Assembly: GCA_002909145.1 (NCBI GenBank)
Contig: PNQY01000162.1
Location: 1-64,000, forward strand
Direction: 5' to 3'
From: Candidatus Thioglobus perditus
GTDB lineage: Bacteria; Pseudomonadota; Gammaproteobacteria; PS1; Pseudothioglobaceae
Length of the DNA: 64,000 bases
Part shown: positions 44,282 to 53,999 of the stretch, piece by piece
How the letters are laid out: every line of letters starts with the position of its first letter
Numbering within the stretch: the stretch's first letter is position 1
Translations under genes and position numbers: made by a program
The notes under the pieces: generated by a model
Seen by the model: only the letters and a program-made list of their open reading frames with translations
Told to the model about the DNA's origin: nothing
The model's database searches: none

Positions 44282-44465
44282 TAAGTAGAATTTTATATAC
44301 TATCAAATAAAATAAATATAGAAAAAACAGTTAAAAAACAATGACTTGCATTGATGTAAATAAGGGCTAAAAATTATTTAATAAAAATAACAAACATGGT
44401 CTATTTTAATCATATAAAATTCTTTCTAAAGTATATTTTTTTAAACTCAAAAAAACAGGTTGATT

Positions 44466-45614
44466 ATGAGCTCATTCATTACGCCTTTAGTGGCCTCAGT
44501 TTTATTGGTATTTTCACTACCTTCTAGTGCGAAAATTATTAACCAAAGTTCAGATAGTTTTGACTCTGTTTATAATATTCAAACAGTTAGTGGAATGTCG
44601 CTAGATAAAAGAGCACTTTTAGGTGGCTCGGTTGTCTCGTCTTCACAGGTTAATTTGTCAGCTCAAGTGTCTGGCGATGTATTAAGCGTTAGTGGAAAAG
44701 AAGGCGATATGTTTAAAAAAGGCTCTGTATTGATCACATTAGAACAAGAATCAATTCAAGCTCAAAGAGATTCTGCATATGCTGAAATTGCATCAGCAAA
44801 TGAAGCTCTTAGAAATGCTGGTGTTCAATACTCTCAATCGATTGTTTCTCCAAATTCAAGCCCTATGCTTGGTGGTATACCTGGAATGTTTTCAATGTTT
44901 ACCGATCCAATGTTAAAAATAAGTGGTCAAGGTAACCCGGAGTTTGATAGGTTTGCCAACAGAACGTCTAGATATACTGGATATCAGCAAGCTAAAAACA
45001 ACCTTAAAAAAGCAGAACTTAATCTTAAACAAATAGAAGAGCGTCTTAAAGATGCAAATGTGAGCGCTCCTTTTGATGGTGTTATTGTTGTTAAAAATAT
45101 TAACCAGGGTGATGTTGTACAGCCAGGTCAAAACTTGATGAGTTTTTCCAACATCAGAGACTTGCAAGTTGAAATTAATGTACCTTCAAGATTGGTTAGA
45201 AGTTTAAAGCTTAATAAAAAATACCGTGTTAAATTAGATATTGCTAACATTGTTGTTGACGCAACCCTTGCACAAATATATCCAATTGCTGATAATAACA
45301 AGCACAGCGTTAAAGTTAAATTTGACCTACCTCCAAGTCTTCCGGTATTGCCTGGTGCTTATGCAGAAGTAGAAATATTTGAAACCGATTCTGGAGTTCT
45401 AACCCCAGTAATCCCAGAGGTTGCAATCATGTGGCGTTCATCATTACCAAGTGTATTTGTTATTAACTCAAAAACAAATAAAACAGAATTAAGGTTTGTT
45501 CGTCTTGGTGAGCAGGTGGGTAAAAGCAAAAAAAGCGTTCTATCAGGCTTGAAAATTGGTGAAAAAATTGTAGCCAATCCAAACATTCTAATGGTTTCTG
45601 GAATGGATATATAA
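44466..45614 (+). CDS. RND efflux periplasmic adaptor subunit (copy 1)
   Basis: A 382-residue membrane-fusion protein. A signal peptide (SSFITPLVASVLLVFSLPSSA) precedes the lipoyl/barrel-sandwich domain (SAQVSGDVLSVSGKEGDMFK), a coiled-coil hairpin and beta-barrel domains. Between the hairpin helices lies a Met/Pro-rich insertion (residues about 135-150) also present in copy 2. The frame extends to a TTG at 44460, but the ATG at 44466 has an AGG at proper spacing. It connects the pump encoded 4 bases downstream to an outer-membrane channel. Confidence 0.9.
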   Translation: MSSFITPLVASVLLVFSLPSSAKIINQSSDSFDSVYNIQTVSGMSLDKRALLGGSVVSSSQVNLSAQVSGDVLSVSGKEGDMFKKGSVLITLEQESIQAQRDSAYAEIASANEALRNAGVQYSQSIVSPNSSPMLGGIPGMFSMFTDPMLKISGQGNPEFDRFANRTSRYTGYQQAKNNLKKAELNLKQIEERLKDANVSAPFDGVIVVKNINQGDVVQPGQNLMSFSNIRDLQVEINVPSRLVRSLKLNKKYRVKLDIANIVVDATLAQIYPIADNNKHSVKVKFDLPPSLPVLPGAYAEVEIFETDSGVLTPVIPEVAIMWRSSLPSVFVINSKTNKTELRFVRLGEQVGKSKKSVLSGLKIGEKIVANPNILMVSGMDI

Positions 45615-45618
45615 AAAT

Positions 45619-48600
45619 ATGCCAAAGAATGATCACGTTGATTTATCTAAAGATAAAAACGTAAGCCAAAAACTAATTAAAGAGGTAGTTAAGGAATACG
45701 AGCTGGGTCTTGCTGGAAAGCTAACCAAAGCTTTTATTACCTCCCCGTTGTCGATTATTATCTTCTTTGCCATGTTGGGTGCTGGAATTATCGGCCTACT
45801 CTCAACACCAAGACAAGAAGACCCTCAGATTTCGGTTCCTTTAATTGATTTATTTGTAGAGTATCCTGGAGCTTCTTCAGAAGAGGTTTCAAATATTATT
45901 GTTAAGCCATTAGAGCGGTTAATGTCGCATATTTTAGGTGTAAAGCATGTTTACTCTGTAAGTGACAAAGGGCAAGGAATTATTACGGTTGAGTTTGACG
46001 TTGGTCAGGATATGAATGCATCAATTATCAAGGTGCGCGATAAAATGCTGGCAAATCTTGATTTTATGCCGCCAGGAGCTAGAAAACCACTAATTAAACC
46101 TAAAGAAATTGACGATGTTCCAATTGTCAACCTTACACTTTGGTCAAAATCTCTTGATGACGGACAACTACGCTCTCTTGGTTTGGAATTATTGCATCAA
46201 CTTGAAAAAGTAAAAGATACTAACAACGGTTTTGTCGTTGGCGGCCGTAAAGAAATTTTCCACATTGATTTATATCCTGGGCGTTTAGCTGGATACGGCG
46301 TATCTATCCAACAAATTGCAGGAACAGTTGGCTCTGCTAATGTTAGAGAGCACACTGGTAATATTGAGCTTAATGGCTTTCAAATGGAAGTTTATTCAGG
46401 AGACTTCTTTAAAAAGGTTGAAGATATTGAGAATCTAGTTGTTGCTATCAATGAAGGAAAGCCTGTATATGTGCGTGATGTTGCTGATGTTTATTACGCT
46501 CCGGAAGAAACAAAGCATACGGTTAATTATTACACTGGTAAAGCCAACAAATCAAACCAAAAGGCAACTGGGGAGCAGGCCGTTACTATTGCTATAGCTA
46601 AGAAATTTGGAACCAATGGCGTTGAGGTGGCTGAAAATATTCTAGCTAAAGTTGATGAATTAAAAGGTAGATTAATCCCTGATAACGTTCAGGTTAGTGT
46701 TACTAGAAACTACGGTAAATCAGCAAAAGATAAAGTTAACGCATTAATCAAAAAACTATTTATTGCAACAGGTGCAGTAACTTTATTAGTATGGTTTGCA
46801 CTTGGAATTAGACCGGCAATTGTTGTTACATTAGTTATTCCAGTTGTGCTATTAATGACTATATTCTCTGCTTGGATTTTAGGCATGACTATCGACAGGG
46901 TTAGTCTATTTGCACTTATTTTTTCTATTGGTATCTTAGTAGATGATGCTATTGTTGTTACCGAAAATATATATAGAAGATGGCTAATCGACAATAAGAT
47001 TACTATTGGCACAGCAATTGATGCAGTGCGTGAAGTTGGCAATCCTACCATTTTAGCTACATTTACTGTAGTTGCTGCACTCGTACCAATGGCCGCTGTA
47101 AGTGGCATGATGGGTCCTTATATGGCTCCAATTCCAGTTCTTGGGTCAGTTGCCATGATGTTCTCATTATTTGCAGCGTTTGTATTTACTCCATACTTCA
47201 TTATGAAGATTGTGCCTCCACTTGACGTGCTACATAAAATGCATAAAAAAGAGGAGAAAGAGGCTAAAGTAATGTTTGCATTTTTCCACTCTACAATCTC
47301 TAAACTATTCAATCAAAAGACTTATGGATGGGGTTTCTTAATTGGCCTAATTGTTGCATTCTTTATGTCAATGTCAATGTTCTACACCACTTCAGTTCCG
47401 GTAAAAATGCTACCACTGGATAATAAGTCAGAATTTGGTGTGGTTTTAGACATGCCGGATGGAACTGCATTGGCAGACACAGCATCAACATTGCATAAAA
47501 TGGCACAAGTGTTACGCAATATTCCAGAAGTTGTGGCTATACAGTCCTACACTGGTACAGCTAAGCCATTTGACTTTAACGGATTAGTAAGACACTACTA
47601 CCTTAGACAAACATCTTCAGAAGGAGAGCTGCAAGTACAACTTGCAGAGAAATCTGATCGCGATAGATCTAGCCACGAAATTGCACTAGAAGCAAGAGAA
47701 ATGATTAGGCAAATTGCAGAAGATGCTGGATCAAACTATGCTGTAGTTGAAATGCCCCCAGGTCCTCCAGTATTGCGCCCTGTAGTTGCTGAAGTATATG
47801 GCCCTGACAAAGAGACCCGTAGAAAGCTTGCAAACGACCTAACTGAATTATTTAAAGAGTCTGGCACTATGACAGATATTGATAATTTAATGCGTGACGA
47901 GTATCCTGTTATTAATTTCCAGGTAGACACGGCAAAAGCATCAAGATTTGGTGTTAGTGTACGAGTTATTAAAGAAACTCTAGCCATGGCAATGAGTAGT
48001 TTTAATGTTGGCACTATTCGTCTTAAAAATGCACTAGAGCCTTCAAGAATTTGCCTGCAAGTTCCACTATCAAAACGCTCACAATTATCATATCTTACTC
48101 AACTACCAGTACCTTCACAGCACGGTGGCATGATTCCTATATCTGAACTTGGATCATTTGTATACAAGAAGCAAGATGACCTTATCTTCCATAAAGATTT
48201 AGCAGATGTTGAATATGTATTGGGTGAGCCTATTGGGCGACTGAGTGCGCCTATTTATGCAATGTTTGGTGTAGATGATTTATTGCTTAGATACCAGACT
48301 ATTGATGGTGAGCAACTTCAAGGAGAATACTTAGGCCCTCCAGAAAACCAAAACGTACCAGGATTTGAATGGTCTGGTGAGTGGACTGTTACTTACGAAA
48401 CTTTCCGTGATATGGGTACAGCATTTGGTGTTGCTTTGGTTGTTATCTATATGCTGGTAGTATGGCAGTTTGGTAACTTTATTGTTCCAGCGGTTATTAT
48501 GGCGCCAATCCCACTTACACTACTTGGTATCGTGCCAGGACATTGGTTATTGGGCGCAGAATTTACCGCAACCTCAATGATTGGTTGGATTGCATTAGCA

Positions 48601-49119
48601 GGTATTATTGTGCGTAATTCTATTCTATTGGTAGACTTTACTGTGCAGGAATACGCAAAAGGTGTGCCATTTTTTGATGCAGTTGTTAATTCATGCTCTT
48701 CACGTACACGTCCAATCTTAATCACTGCATTTGCTCTTGTTGGTGGATCGAGTGTTATTTTGTCAGATCCTATTTTCCAAGGTATGGCAATTTCGTTGTT
48801 GTTCGGTGTGCTTATCTCTACAGTGCTAACACTTATTGTAATTCCACTTGGAACACTTTCAGCAGGCGAGGATTCATGTAGAAATATCGCTGTAAATATG
48901 GGGCTGCTTCCAGGTGATGCAGATGCAGATGCTAAGTACAATGTTACAAAAGCAGAGAAACCTAAGAAGCCAAAAACAGATAAAAAACCTTCAGATCCTA
49001 AAAAATGGATTAAAGAAGCTTTAGGTAAGAAGAATCAAGACAAAAAAGATGATGACTCTAATAATGGCAAAATTGATACTAACGGGTTATTAAAAAAGGA
49101 AGATAAAAACGATCTGTAG
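45619..49119 (+). CDS. RND efflux permease (copy 1)
   Basis: A 1166-residue inner-membrane proton-driven pump of the RND superfamily, with 12 helices and two large periplasmic loops. The first loop begins after STPRQEDPQISVP. Helix 4 carries the proton-relay aspartates (SIGILVDDAIVVTENIYRRW). The last ~65 residues form a lysine/aspartate-rich tail that copy 2 lacks. Substrate is unknown. Part of its 3' region is almost identical in DNA to copy 2. Confidence 0.93.
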   Translation: MPKNDHVDLSKDKNVSQKLIKEVVKEYELGLAGKLTKAFITSPLSIIIFFAMLGAGIIGLLSTPRQEDPQISVPLIDLFVEYPGASSEEVSNIIVKPLERLMSHILGVKHVYSVSDKGQGIITVEFDVGQDMNASIIKVRDKMLANLDFMPPGARKPLIKPKEIDDVPIVNLTLWSKSLDDGQLRSLGLELLHQLEKVKDTNNGFVVGGRKEIFHIDLYPGRLAGYGVSIQQIAGTVGSANVREHTGNIELNGFQMEVYSGDFFKKVEDIENLVVAINEGKPVYVRDVADVYYAPEETKHTVNYYTGKANKSNQKATGEQAVTIAIAKKFGTNGVEVAENILAKVDELKGRLIPDNVQVSVTRNYGKSAKDKVNALIKKLFIATGAVTLLVWFALGIRPAIVVTLVIPVVLLMTIFSAWILGMTIDRVSLFALIFSIGILVDDAIVVTENIYRRWLIDNKITIGTAIDAVREVGNPTILATFTVVAALVPMAAVSGMMGPYMAPIPVLGSVAMMFSLFAAFVFTPYFIMKIVPPLDVLHKMHKKEEKEAKVMFAFFHSTISKLFNQKTYGWGFLIGLIVAFFMSMSMFYTTSVPVKMLPLDNKSEFGVVLDMPDGTALADTASTLHKMAQVLRNIPEVVAIQSYTGTAKPFDFNGLVRHYYLRQTSSEGELQVQLAEKSDRDRSSHEIALEAREMIRQIAEDAGSNYAVVEMPPGPPVLRPVVAEVYGPDKETRRKLANDLTELFKESGTMTDIDNLMRDEYPVINFQVDTAKASRFGVSVRVIKETLAMAMSSFNVGTIRLKNALEPSRICLQVPLSKRSQLSYLTQLPVPSQHGGMIPISELGSFVYKKQDDLIFHKDLADVEYVLGEPIGRLSAPIYAMFGVDDLLLRYQTIDGEQLQGEYLGPPENQNVPGFEWSGEWTVTYETFRDMGTAFGVALVVIYMLVVWQFGNFIVPAVIMAPIPLTLLGIVPGHWLLGAEFTATSMIGWIALAGIIVRNSILLVDFTVQEYAKGVPFFDAVVNSCSSRTRPILITAFALVGGSSVILSDPIFQGMAISLLFGVLISTVLTLIVIPLGTLSAGEDSCRNIAVNMGLLPGDADADAKYNVTKAEKPKKPKTDKKPSDPKKWIKEALGKKNQDKKDDDSNNGKIDTNGLLKKEDKNDL
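48379..48418. repeat. 40-bp identical block shared with 49940-49979 (inverted)
   Basis: These 40 bases of permease copy 1 are identical to the reverse complement of 49940-49979 in copy 2. They lie 98 bases before the larger shared block, and the spacing is the same in both copies. Confidence 0.88.
48517..48620. repeat. 104-bp near-identical inverted repeat, arm 1
   Basis: It matches the reverse complement of 49738-49841 with a single difference (48594, A versus C). It lies in the permease copy 1 coding region, in helices 10-11. Flanking codons differ at most synonymous positions between the copies. Confidence 0.92.
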
Positions 49120-49147
49120 CCCTTAATAAAAACATCAAGTATATTTT

Positions 49148-49177
49148 AAAAGCCAGCATCTATTGTTGGCTTTTTTT
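49148..49177 (+). terminator. Terminator of the copy 1 efflux operon
   Basis: An 11-bp stem containing one G-T pair, with the loop TCTAT, continues into a T tract, 28 bases after the permease stop. Confidence 0.88.
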
Positions 49178-49401
49178 ATTAACAATATTCGCAAAGACTT
49201 TTTAAATAATATAAACAGCTTTATTTACAATGTTAAATCACTATCTAAAAGCTTAAAAACATTAGTATTTAAAGCTTTTATGTGTTTTTAATAGTTGAGC
49301 AGGGTGGTGGTAAAAAACTTAGAAAAACTCTCATTATAAAAAAATAAGATAAAACGTTTTAAAATACAATATCGAAATTAGTTTTTTAAGTGAACTAGAT
49401 G

Positions 49402-49437
49402 CTTAATACTCTTTTATTCACTACAAAGAGTATTAAG
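49402..49437. repeat. Perfect 13-bp inverted repeat before the copy 2 permease 3' end
   Basis: CTTAATACTCTTT and its exact complement are separated by 10 bases (49415-49424). On the plus strand a T run follows; on the minus strand none does. It lies 17 bases beyond the copy 2 stop and may stabilise or end that transcript. Confidence 0.7.
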
Positions 49438-49454
49438 ATTTTTTAAAGACGGTG

Positions 49455-52400
49455 CTAGTCTTGCTCTTTACTTTCTGCAAACACCTTCTCCCCAGCACTA
49501 ATACAACCTAGTGGGATAACTATTAAGGTTAGTAGGGTGGAGATAAATACACCGAACAACAACGAAACCGCCATACCTTGGAAAATAGGGTCAAATAATA
49601 TCACCATAGATCCAAGAATAAGTGCGAAAGCTGTAATTAGAATTGGTCTAGTTCTTGATTTAGCTGAAAGAATAACTGCATCAAGTAGTGGTGTGCCACT
49701 ACGAAATGCATGAGTAGTAAAGTCAACCATTAAGATTGAATTACGCACAATAATACCTGCTAAGGCAATCCAACCAATCATTGAGGTTGCGGTAAATTCT
49801 GCGCCCAATAACCAATGTCCTGGCACGATACCAAGTAGTGTGAGTGGAATAGGGGACATGATGATAGCTGGAATTGTGAAGTTACCAAACGCCCATACAA
49901 CCAACATATAAATAGCAATCAGCGCCACGCCAAAAGCAATACCCATATCACGGAAAGTTTCGTAAGTAACAGTCCACTCGCCACCCCACTCAAAACCACT
50001 AACTTTATCACTAGCTGGTGCGCCAGTGTACTCGCCACTTCTAAGTTCTACTCCATCAGGAGTAGTGTAGCCTTTTTCTGCAAGAATTCTCTCTACATCT
50101 AGCATTGCATAAATAGGCGCTCCTAAGCGTCCAACAGCATCGCCAACAACAAACTCAACATTTCTTAAATCTTTATGGAAGATAATATCATCACGCTTAA
50201 CCTTAACAAATTTACCTAGTTCTGATAATGGTATAGTTCTTTGGTCCATAGTCATAACCGGCAAATCACCTAAGCGATGTAGGTTGGATCTTTTCTCAAC
50301 AGGAATAGTTAACACTACATGAGTAGGTTCTGAAATCAATGAATTAAAAATAGTAGTAGCTTTAAACTCGCCCATTACCATAGCTAAATGTTGATTTATA
50401 GTTTCTACAGAAATACCCTGACGTGAGGCTTTTTCACGATCAATCTCAAAGCGCCAAGTCTCCATTGGGCTACGCATTAAATTATCAACATCAGCAATAA
50501 TTTCAGACTCACGAAAAATTTGAGTTATATCATCTGCAACCTTACGACGAGTGTCTGCATCTGGGCCATGCACTTCTGCAACCACAGTTTGCAACACTGG
50601 AGGTCCTGGAGGCATTTCTACTACAGTGATTGCAACACCAGACTCTTGAGCTATTGTTTCTAATTGCTCACGTACTGCGCTAGCAATGTCATGACTAGTA
50701 CGATCACGCACAGTCTTATCAGTCAACTGAATGGCAATTTCAGCTTGCCAAGGGAATTGACGTAAATAGTAATGACGAACTAAACCGTTGAAATCAAATG
50801 GTTGAGCTGTACCAATGTAGTTTTGTGTAGCAACAATTTCTTCAATGTCTTTTAATTTTGAAGCAATTTTATTAGTAAAGTTTGCTGTAGTTGGAAGGGC
50901 AGTTCCATCAGGCATGTCAATCACAATACTAAAGTTTGATTTGTCATCAAATGGCAACATCTTAACTGGAACTGATGTGTTGTAAAACATATACATAGAA
51001 CCGAAAAAGCTTAAAAACAATCCAAGTAAGAAGCCATATCCTAGTGATTTATTATTAACCAACCCAAGAATAACTTTGCGAAAGAAAACATCCATTTTTG
51101 CATCAATTTTTTCATCTCGCTCTTCCATTTTGCGTAGTTTTTCCATACTAGGAATGATTCTCATAGCTAAGTATGGTGCAAAGATAAGCGCTGCTAAAAG
51201 TGATAAAATCATTGCTACAGAGCCTAATGCTGGGATTGGTTCCATATAAGGACCCATCATTCCAGAGATAAAGCCCATTGGAATAAGTGCTGCAACTACG
51301 GTATATGTGGCTAAAACAGTTGGATTTCCAACCTCACGCACAGCATCAACAGCAACGTTACTACTCATGCATCCTGCCATCAGCCATCGTCTATATATAT
51401 TCTCTACAATTACAATAGCATTATCAACCAAAAAACCAATAGAGAAGATGAGTGCAAACAAACTAACTCTATCGATGGTGTAGCCCATAAGCATAGCAAT
51501 AAATACAGTTGCAACCAATACGACAGGAATAGTAAGCAGAACCACAATAGATGGCTTTATACCCAAGCTAAGCCATACTAGTAGTGTTACCGCGCCTGTG
51601 GCAACAAACAACTTAAATATTAAGTCATTAACCTTGTTATTGGCACTAAGCCCATAATTACGTGTAACTTCAACATTTACATTACTAGGAATTAAATACC
51701 CCTTAAGGCTTTCAATCTCATTTAATATATCGTTAACTACACTAACACCGTTTGATCCACGCTGTTTAGCCAAGGCAATGGTAACAGCAGATGCATTCTT
51801 AATAGTTTTAGCTTCAGGATCGTCAGAATATGCTGCTCCAGTAGAAAATGTAACCAAACCTTTAGTTTCTTGAGGGCTTTGAGTAACACTAGCCACATCT
51901 CTTAAAAATACTGGTGTGCCTTTATGTTGACCAACAACTAGCTGTTCAATATCATCAACATTTGATAAATATCCGCCAGACTCAACAAACATAAATTTAT
52001 TATTTATTTCAACAGAACCAACAGTGTGCCCAGTATTTGCGGTTTGTACTGAGTGAACAATCTGACCAGGGCTAACGCCAAATCCAGCAAGGCGCTCAGG
52101 AAGTATTTCAATACGCATTTGTTGTGAACGGCCACCAGTTACAAATCCAACTCCAGTAAGGGGCACTTGTTTAAGATGTTGCAGAACGCTAACACCTAAA
52201 ACCCTAAGCTGCTCATCATCTACATCTTCAGACCATAGGGTTAAGGTAACCGAAGGAACATCGTCAACTTCTTTTGGTTTTACTTGTGGAGGGTCTATAC
52301 CTTTGGGTAATAAATCAAGATTAGATTGAATTTTGCTATGAACCTGCAATATAGAAGGCCCCATTGGCTCGCCAACTTTAAACTGAATAGTGATAACACC

Positions 52401-52766
52401 ATATTCACGATCACTTGCAGAATATATGTGCTTAATATTTGGAATTTCACTCAGGGTTCTTTCAAACGGATCAATAAGTTGACTAGAAACCTCATTTGAA
52501 GAAAGACCAGGGGCTGGAAAGAAAATATCAATCATTGGTACTGATATTTGCGGATCTTCCTGACGTGGTGTAGCTATCAGACCCCAGATTCCAATTGCCA
52601 TCATAGCAATAAATAATAATGGTGACAAAGGGGAGTGGATAAAGGTTCTGGCTAAATTACCAGAAAAGCCTATATCTTTATCCTCAATAAAGTTTTCATC
52701 TTTATTTAAAATCGAATCTTTTTCATCTGAGTTTATATCACAAAACTCTTGTTCTTCTTTTTGCAT
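49455..52766 (-). CDS. RND efflux permease (copy 2)
   Basis: A 1103-residue paralogue of copy 1 with the same architecture: TPRQEDPQISVPMID in the first loop region, helix 4 with SIGFLVDNAIVIVENIYRRW, and a C-terminal helix bundle. In helix 4 the relay pair reads DN where copy 1 has DD. It ends shortly after the last helix (SAGEKVFAESKEQD), without the lysine-rich tail. It is transcribed after its adaptor, 9 bases apart, and converges on copy 1. Confidence 0.93.
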   Translation of the reverse strand: MQKEEQEFCDINSDEKDSILNKDENFIEDKDIGFSGNLARTFIHSPLSPLLFIAMMAIGIWGLIATPRQEDPQISVPMIDIFFPAPGLSSNEVSSQLIDPFERTLSEIPNIKHIYSASDREYGVITIQFKVGEPMGPSILQVHSKIQSNLDLLPKGIDPPQVKPKEVDDVPSVTLTLWSEDVDDEQLRVLGVSVLQHLKQVPLTGVGFVTGGRSQQMRIEILPERLAGFGVSPGQIVHSVQTANTGHTVGSVEINNKFMFVESGGYLSNVDDIEQLVVGQHKGTPVFLRDVASVTQSPQETKGLVTFSTGAAYSDDPEAKTIKNASAVTIALAKQRGSNGVSVVNDILNEIESLKGYLIPSNVNVEVTRNYGLSANNKVNDLIFKLFVATGAVTLLVWLSLGIKPSIVVLLTIPVVLVATVFIAMLMGYTIDRVSLFALIFSIGFLVDNAIVIVENIYRRWLMAGCMSSNVAVDAVREVGNPTVLATYTVVAALIPMGFISGMMGPYMEPIPALGSVAMILSLLAALIFAPYLAMRIIPSMEKLRKMEERDEKIDAKMDVFFRKVILGLVNNKSLGYGFLLGLFLSFFGSMYMFYNTSVPVKMLPFDDKSNFSIVIDMPDGTALPTTANFTNKIASKLKDIEEIVATQNYIGTAQPFDFNGLVRHYYLRQFPWQAEIAIQLTDKTVRDRTSHDIASAVREQLETIAQESGVAITVVEMPPGPPVLQTVVAEVHGPDADTRRKVADDITQIFRESEIIADVDNLMRSPMETWRFEIDREKASRQGISVETINQHLAMVMGEFKATTIFNSLISEPTHVVLTIPVEKRSNLHRLGDLPVMTMDQRTIPLSELGKFVKVKRDDIIFHKDLRNVEFVVGDAVGRLGAPIYAMLDVERILAEKGYTTPDGVELRSGEYTGAPASDKVSGFEWGGEWTVTYETFRDMGIAFGVALIAIYMLVVWAFGNFTIPAIIMSPIPLTLLGIVPGHWLLGAEFTATSMIGWIALAGIIVRNSILMVDFTTHAFRSGTPLLDAVILSAKSRTRPILITAFALILGSMVILFDPIFQGMAVSLLFGVFISTLLTLIVIPLGCISAGEKVFAESKEQD
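49738..49841. repeat. 104-bp near-identical inverted repeat, arm 2
   Basis: Reverse complement of 48517-48620 with one difference, inside the copy 2 permease. The inner edges of the two arms are 1,117 bases apart. Confidence 0.92.
49940..49979. repeat. 40-bp identical block, arm 2
   Basis: Reverse complement of 48379-48418 with no difference, inside the copy 2 permease. Confidence 0.88.
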
Positions 52767-52775
52767 AAGCTAATT

Positions 52776-53900
52776 TTATTTTCTAATAGATGTAGATAAA
52801 GACGGGTTTTTGAGCACCATCTCTCCTGAATAGATACCAGATAACACACTTACCCAACCGTTATCAGCCATATCACCAACACGTACAAAACGCATTTCTA
52901 GTTGACCATTATTGTTTACATAAACAGTTGGCAAGCTACCACGTAATATCACAGCGCTACTAGGTATAGTTACCAGTTCTATAGAGTTTTTATTAACATC
53001 TGGGATTATTACTTCAACATACATACCGGGTGCAGCTATAGTGTTTTCTGGTAATGCAAATTTAACAGTAATAGTGTGCCCCATTACATCAGCCATTGGA
53101 AAGACACGTGACACAACAATTTGTGTATTCTTGCTGCTTTGATCTAAGCGTGCATTTAATTTCATACCACGCTTAAGAGTTCTAGCTAAACGTGCTGGAA
53201 CTTCAGCCCTAATCTGTAAATTTTTAGTATCACCATACAAGAAAATAGGTACACCCGGTTGTGCAGGTTGACCAACTTCGACCATTTTTCTTAATATAAC
53301 ACCATCAAACGGGGCAAATGTAGTGGCGTTTTCTATATTCTCATCCAGTTCACGAATGCCAGCAAGAGCTTGAGTGTGTGCATTTCTAGCTGTTTCTAAT
53401 TGCACATTCATTGCATATAGATTGGTTCTCTTTTGTGTATTTGCATTGCCTTCACCAGACATACTTCTCATTGGATCTGAGAACATACTAACCATGCTTG
53501 GCATGCCTGCTAACATTGCATTTGACTGAGAATTTGGATTTTCCATTTCATTATAAACTTGCATTTGTGCATTGCGCACACCGGCATCTGCACTAGCAAG
53601 CTGTGCCTCAGCTTGATCTCTTTTAGCTATTAATGCATCAATATCTTGTCTTGCTAATTTATTTCCACGTTTAAACGAATCACCTTCTTCGCCAGCAAGA
53701 AAAATAATATCTCCAGGCATCTTGGCAACTAAATTAACTTCACGGTGTGGTATAACCGTTCCACCTAAAGAGGTAAAAGAACCAATCTTACTTGTTTTGG
53801 CGGCAACAAACTCTTGAGAAGATACTTCAGCAGATGAAACTTGAGTAATTGAGAACAATAGAGCACATGTAACTATACTTTTTGTAAATGATATTTTCAT
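52776..53900 (-). CDS. RND efflux periplasmic adaptor subunit (copy 2)
   Basis: A 374-residue membrane-fusion protein paralogous to copy 1. The ATG at 53900 gives a clean signal peptide (SIVTCALLFSITQVSSA); the open frame runs on to a TTG at 53945. The lipoyl domain has LVAKMPGDIIFLAGEEGDSF. The hairpin holds a Met-rich insertion (AMLAGMPSMVSMFSDPM) as in copy 1. A 10-bp palindrome, AGGTTAACCT, lies at 53968-53977, about 70 bases upstream, in the likely promoter region. Confidence 0.9.
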   Translation of the reverse strand: MKISFTKSIVTCALLFSITQVSSAEVSSQEFVAAKTSKIGSFTSLGGTVIPHREVNLVAKMPGDIIFLAGEEGDSFKRGNKLARQDIDALIAKRDQAEAQLASADAGVRNAQMQVYNEMENPNSQSNAMLAGMPSMVSMFSDPMRSMSGEGNANTQKRTNLYAMNVQLETARNAHTQALAGIRELDENIENATTFAPFDGVILRKMVEVGQPAQPGVPIFLYGDTKNLQIRAEVPARLARTLKRGMKLNARLDQSSKNTQIVVSRVFPMADVMGHTITVKFALPENTIAAPGMYVEVIIPDVNKNSIELVTIPSSAVILRGSLPTVYVNNNGQLEMRFVRVGDMADNGWVSVLSGIYSGEMVLKNPSLSTSIRK

Positions 53901-53999
53901 AAATAGTTGTTTATTTGTTGATATGAAGGCGAATTCTACCACCAATAGGTGTTTTATTTCTTAACATAGGTTAACCTTATTGATATATTTTGCAATTTA

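Follow-up and report, generated by a model that had tools for sequence, protein, structure and literature searches.

Near-identical inverted blocks in two convergent RND permease genes of Candidatus Thioglobus perditus point to recurrent gene conversion

In a 64,000-nucleotide stretch of the genome of Candidatus Thioglobus perditus, a marine bacterium that oxidises sulfur (positions 1 to 64,000 of contig PNQY01000162.1, here called the window), two efflux permease genes that lie tail to tail share short blocks of almost identical DNA in inverted orientation. The question raised by this locus is how two genes that are otherwise clearly diverged came to carry such blocks. The genes and blocks concerned are:

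44460..45614, + strand: periplasmic adaptor (membrane fusion protein) of pump A; Pfam HlyD_3/HlyD_D23; NCBIfam RND_mfp, 169 bits, above the cut-off
45619..49119, + strand: RND permease A; Pfam ACR_tran, 461 bits; single orthologue in most of the family
48379..48418, + strand: 40-base identical block, copy in A; 40/40 with the reverse complement of 49940-49979
48517..48620, + strand: 104-base conversion block (probable, see below), copy in A; 103/104 with the reverse complement of 49738-49841; permutation test
49455..52766, - strand: RND permease B; Pfam ACR_tran, 443.6 bits; part of a two-gene cassette between A and lipA
49738..49841, - strand: 104-base conversion block (probable), copy in B; 103/104 with 48517-48620
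49940..49979, - strand: 40-base identical block, copy in B; 40/40 with 48379-48418
52776..53945, - strand: periplasmic adaptor of pump B; Pfam HlyD_3; NCBIfam RND_mfp, 130.9 bits, above the cut-off

The profile matches of A and B span nearly the whole of ACR_tran and far exceed its cut-off of 28 bits, showing that both are full-length RND efflux permeases. The genes are convergent, with 335 bp between them, and an adaptor gene lies upstream of each. A and B are old paralogues, identical overall at 636 of 1086 amino acids (59%) and 2042 of 3258 nucleotides (62–63%); with an overall identity of just 62%, a whole-gene duplication of recent date is out. The gap between them holds two hairpins with T-runs (49150-49178 and 49402-49444), probably terminators, the second of which can likewise be read in the + direction, facing the end of B. 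Compared with shuffled sequences, the 371 nt from 49100 to 49470 fold more favourably (z = -3.4).

On direct comparison, the one mismatch in 104 bases and the 40-base identity given in the preliminary description proved exact in their coordinates, the single mismatch falling at 48594 and the longest exact A/B run in the window genome being 77 nt. The surroundings had been called diverged, and they are: 27 mismatches fall within the 98 bases separating the two blocks, 40 within the 100 bases downstream of the longer block and 57 within the 100 bases upstream of the shorter one (ungapped), and over their whole length the genes are about 62% identical. The blocks are in frame in both permeases, the 104-base block lying in the conserved C-terminal transmembrane part with about 1.1 kb between its inverted arms. 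A third copy of the block was not found in this assembly (1.59 Mb, 190 contigs). Comparing A and B codon by codon, as had been suggested, reveals a dip in silent divergence that is confined to the block: of the residues that A and B share, about half have the same codon over the genes as a whole, and only at the block do 18 of 18 degenerate codons agree. Low divergence is therefore not spread evenly along the genes, which was one of two outcomes that the preliminary description had set against its reading of recent gene conversion.

Relatives were sampled as 83 genomes of the family (an order-level search gave the identical 83). A is widespread in the family and B is present in five of the 83; those that have both genes are represented by drafts, in most cases bins from metagenomes. 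In four of these five (the window genome, G035, G008 and G017, from three genera) B and its adaptor form a linked cassette between A and lipA, and lipA directly follows A in all four B-less genomes examined. In the fifth, G003, B sits on a different contig, and the ~4.7 kb downstream of it contain neither A nor lipA. The presence of the cassette at the A-lipA site in three genera and its absence from most family genomes may be due to losses on several occasions, or else to transfer of the entire locus through homology of its flanks. A search of a plasmid collection gave one weak match, in Vibrio. Two further observations concern individual genes: the A permease of G017 (L114:1694-5181) is interrupted by stops that divide it into three reading frames, which makes it either a pseudogene or the product of a faulty consensus in an old metagenome scaffold, and the B of G003 (L115:3965-7237), outside the A-lipA site, carries the A-like residues LVLGSSVILSDP and GMAIS, possibly from an older conversion before the separation, or by chance.

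Agreement between A and B was scored over silent codons variable within the family, and compared with 20,000 permutations and with a null of 194 A-B pairs from different genomes, pairs that have all protein constraints in common but not one cell. The concordant segment 48517-48616 of the window pair scored 26 against a permutation maximum of 22 (0/20,000), and the top score among the cross-genome pairs was 12; a strict run of 22 was attained in 3 of 20,000 permutations. G035 likewise gave 0/20,000, and the tests for G008 and G017, taken singly, were not significant. For the 40-base block, A-B identity was 1.00 in the window genome and reached at most 0.974 in pairs from different genomes, so that as separate evidence of conversion it is suggestive and weaker than the 104-base block.

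At the block, A and B of one genome are identical at 0.99 (window), 0.98 (G035), 0.89 (G017), 0.85 (G003) and 0.82 (G008) of positions, compared with a mean of 0.79 and a maximum of 0.90 for cross-genome pairs; G003, where B was not found beside A and which is the sole genome on the unlinked side of this contrast, shows no A-B excess. The A gene of the window matches its A orthologues at 77–89% of block positions (about 83%) and the B gene of its own genome at 99%, so that conservation of the same codons in single-copy homologues, the second outcome named as contrary to conversion, is also absent. G035, which belongs to another genus and has the same gene arrangement, has two exact A/B runs, one of 44 nt and one of 281 nt, in a tract of about 350 nt that overlaps the window tract. 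Because its sequence is not that of the window tract, the two must have separate origins. In both genomes, then, paralogues are closer than orthologues within a bounded tract, which is a criterion of interlocus gene conversion. The G035 tract ends where good A/B alignment stops, and tract edges that coincide with loss of similarity would be expected if pairing needs near-identity. The arginine codon at 48406 is AGA in both genes of G008 and of G017, CGT in both genes of the window genome and of G035, and differs between the two genes of G003 (A, CGT; B, AGA). Judged from such shared codons, G008 and G017 show weaker signs of what may be older conversion.

Tree tests point the same way. For the G035 tract, a constraint placing its A gene with A relatives and its B gene with that of G003 was rejected (AU p = 1.2e-6), and three control segments of equal length were not (p = 0.11–0.61). 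This targeted constraint with control segments replaced two earlier ones. Constraining A and B to monophyly over the whole G035 tract gave no rejection (p = 0.33), because an unrooted split allows one converted pair on either side, and forcing the complete rest-of-gene topology also rejected the control segments and was thus unspecific. The window block alone (105 nt) has little power: AU p was 0.013, with one of three equal-length controls at 0.029. With all pairs included, the block rejects a division of A and B into separate clades (AU p = 0.00018), a division that the remainder of the gene fits.

The direction of transfer differs between and within tracts. At alignment columns 1018-1075 both G035 genes are A-like, the B gene scores as an A gene, and many B residues are altered (for example TVQEYAKG versus B-type TTNAFRGG), so that transfer from A to B is clear for most of this tract. 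At its distal end (columns 1075-1093) both genes are B-like, and the A gene of G035, alone among the A genes compared, carries the B-type GVFVSTLL versus GVL(I/V)ST. This mosaic represents either two events or one heteroduplex that was repaired patchily. In G008 and G017 it is the A genes that resemble B, at columns 936-948 and 978-999, which suggests transfer from B to A. Donor and recipient calls for the window itself are weak and mixed.

Given an independent, overlapping tract in a second genome with the same gene arrangement, conversion is much the best reading. We conclude, with a probability of roughly 0.93, that the blocks arose by recent gene conversion between A and B, recurrent, patchy and in both directions, with the neighbouring copy presumably used as template. 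The recent gene conversion proposed in the preliminary description thus holds, but not as a single event, since it appears recurrent and bidirectional in several lineages. Mechanistically, arrival of the B cassette between A and lipA would have placed the old paralogues in convergent orientation ~340 bp apart, giving an inverted repeat, in their most conserved C-terminal segment, of sufficient length to initiate homologous pairing. Repair or resynthesis of one copy would then occasionally be templated by the other, giving non-crossover gene conversion with short tracts of about 40–350 bp. Such a recent event would have covered 48517-48620 in the window, and possibly 48379-48418 as well; a separate event would account for the tract of about 350 bp in G035, and G008 and G017 would retain older traces. 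Closeness and inverted orientation may promote the process.

Templated repair of this kind could be of RecA type or involve template switching at the replication fork, and the data fit both. Fold-back switching between the inverted copies, a sub-case of conversion rather than an exclusive alternative, is conceivable, though we consider it the less likely route: in its favour are the inversion and proximity of the copies (block arms about 1.1 kb apart) and a proposal that the mechanism underlies the concerted evolution of inverted repeats within coding DNA of Nematomorpha mitochondria (PMC6649704), but no data are specific to it, and heteroduplex repair would account just as well for mosaic tracts running in both directions.

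Explanations other than conversion fare far worse. Common assembler k-mer sizes lie near 77 nt. Since the longest exact run is also 77 nt and the assembly is a draft in 190 contigs, similar stretches might have been merged and one consensus placed at both sites, and a collapsed repeat could overstate the identity of near-identical copies. Such an artefact is nevertheless very improbable, as one base still differs between the copies, the flanks are 27–40% different (too much for merging unless the copies were already near-identical), G035 has a tract of its own with another sequence and other ends, and weaker traces appear in two more assemblies. Equally improbable is an inversion switch, in which crossing-over at the inverted blocks would flip the 1.1-kb centre and swap the gene tails, leaving the block as its footprint. 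The geometry permits this, with inverted repeats in frame in two convergent genes, but the A-type tail (a lysine-rich extension of about 80 residues with a KIDTNGLLKKEDK motif at its end) is attached to A, and the short B tail to B, in 4/4 linked genomes; at the level of assemblies, none of these four has swapped tails or any sign of a fixed inversion. Least probable of all is selection on the nucleotide sequence (codon choice, RNA structure or an overlapping element) keeping the copies alike without exchange: the block does encode the most conserved protein stretch, and cross-genome identity is raised there (about 0.79–0.83), but A orthologues differ at 11–23% of block bases, the G035 sequence is different yet common to its own A and B, and codon matches (Arg AGA/AGA versus CGT/CGT) occur within genomes and not between them.

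By sequence criteria A and B are a clear example, if a rather ordinary one, of interlocus gene conversion, a known process. As with tufA and tufB of Salmonella, inverted chromosomal paralogues that exchange tracts bounded by the extent of homology (PMC5485169), the pair is inverted and its tracts are limited by homology. The tuf genes, however, have 12 differences in 1185 nt and lie 762 kb apart (PMC5485169), whereas A and B are just 62% identical and ~340 bp apart, and conversion is accordingly restricted to a conserved island. Conversion of domain 3 between RF1 and RF2 in Bacteroidia and Chloroflexi, known from independent cases in opposite directions (PMC4530459), is similar in that old, functionally distinct paralogues exchange an interchangeable domain, independently and in opposite directions; there a whole domain is concerned and the evidence is phylogenetic inference, whereas here the tracts of the window and of G035 consist of recent, near-identical DNA in adjacent convergent genes. 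In Nematomorpha mitochondria, inverted-repeat arms within coding DNA remain identical while changing (PMC6649704). Concerted evolution of inverted repeats in coding DNA is common to both systems, but those repeats are perfect palindromes in animal mitochondria and ours lie in two paralogous bacterial genes. Less usual here is the combination of low overall identity with an adjacent inverted arrangement and replicated events. A search of an open-access library for conversion between RND pump paralogues, or for SUP05 RND pumps, returned nothing relevant.

Reshuffling of residues between the pumps is visible at the protein level in G035. One might speculate that the convergent layout makes the C-terminal transmembrane segment a linkage-dependent conversion hotspot and a source of hybrid pumps, an idea we regard as rather doubtful. 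As a natural case the locus is clean: paralogues as distant as these (62%) have undergone conversion recently and repeatedly, within the limits of a highly identical island, and another genus supplies an independent replicate. For these bacteria it means that RND permease trees can be misled by the C-terminal segment, and the few genomes carrying both genes form a small comparative system for asking if closeness and inverted orientation raise conversion rates.
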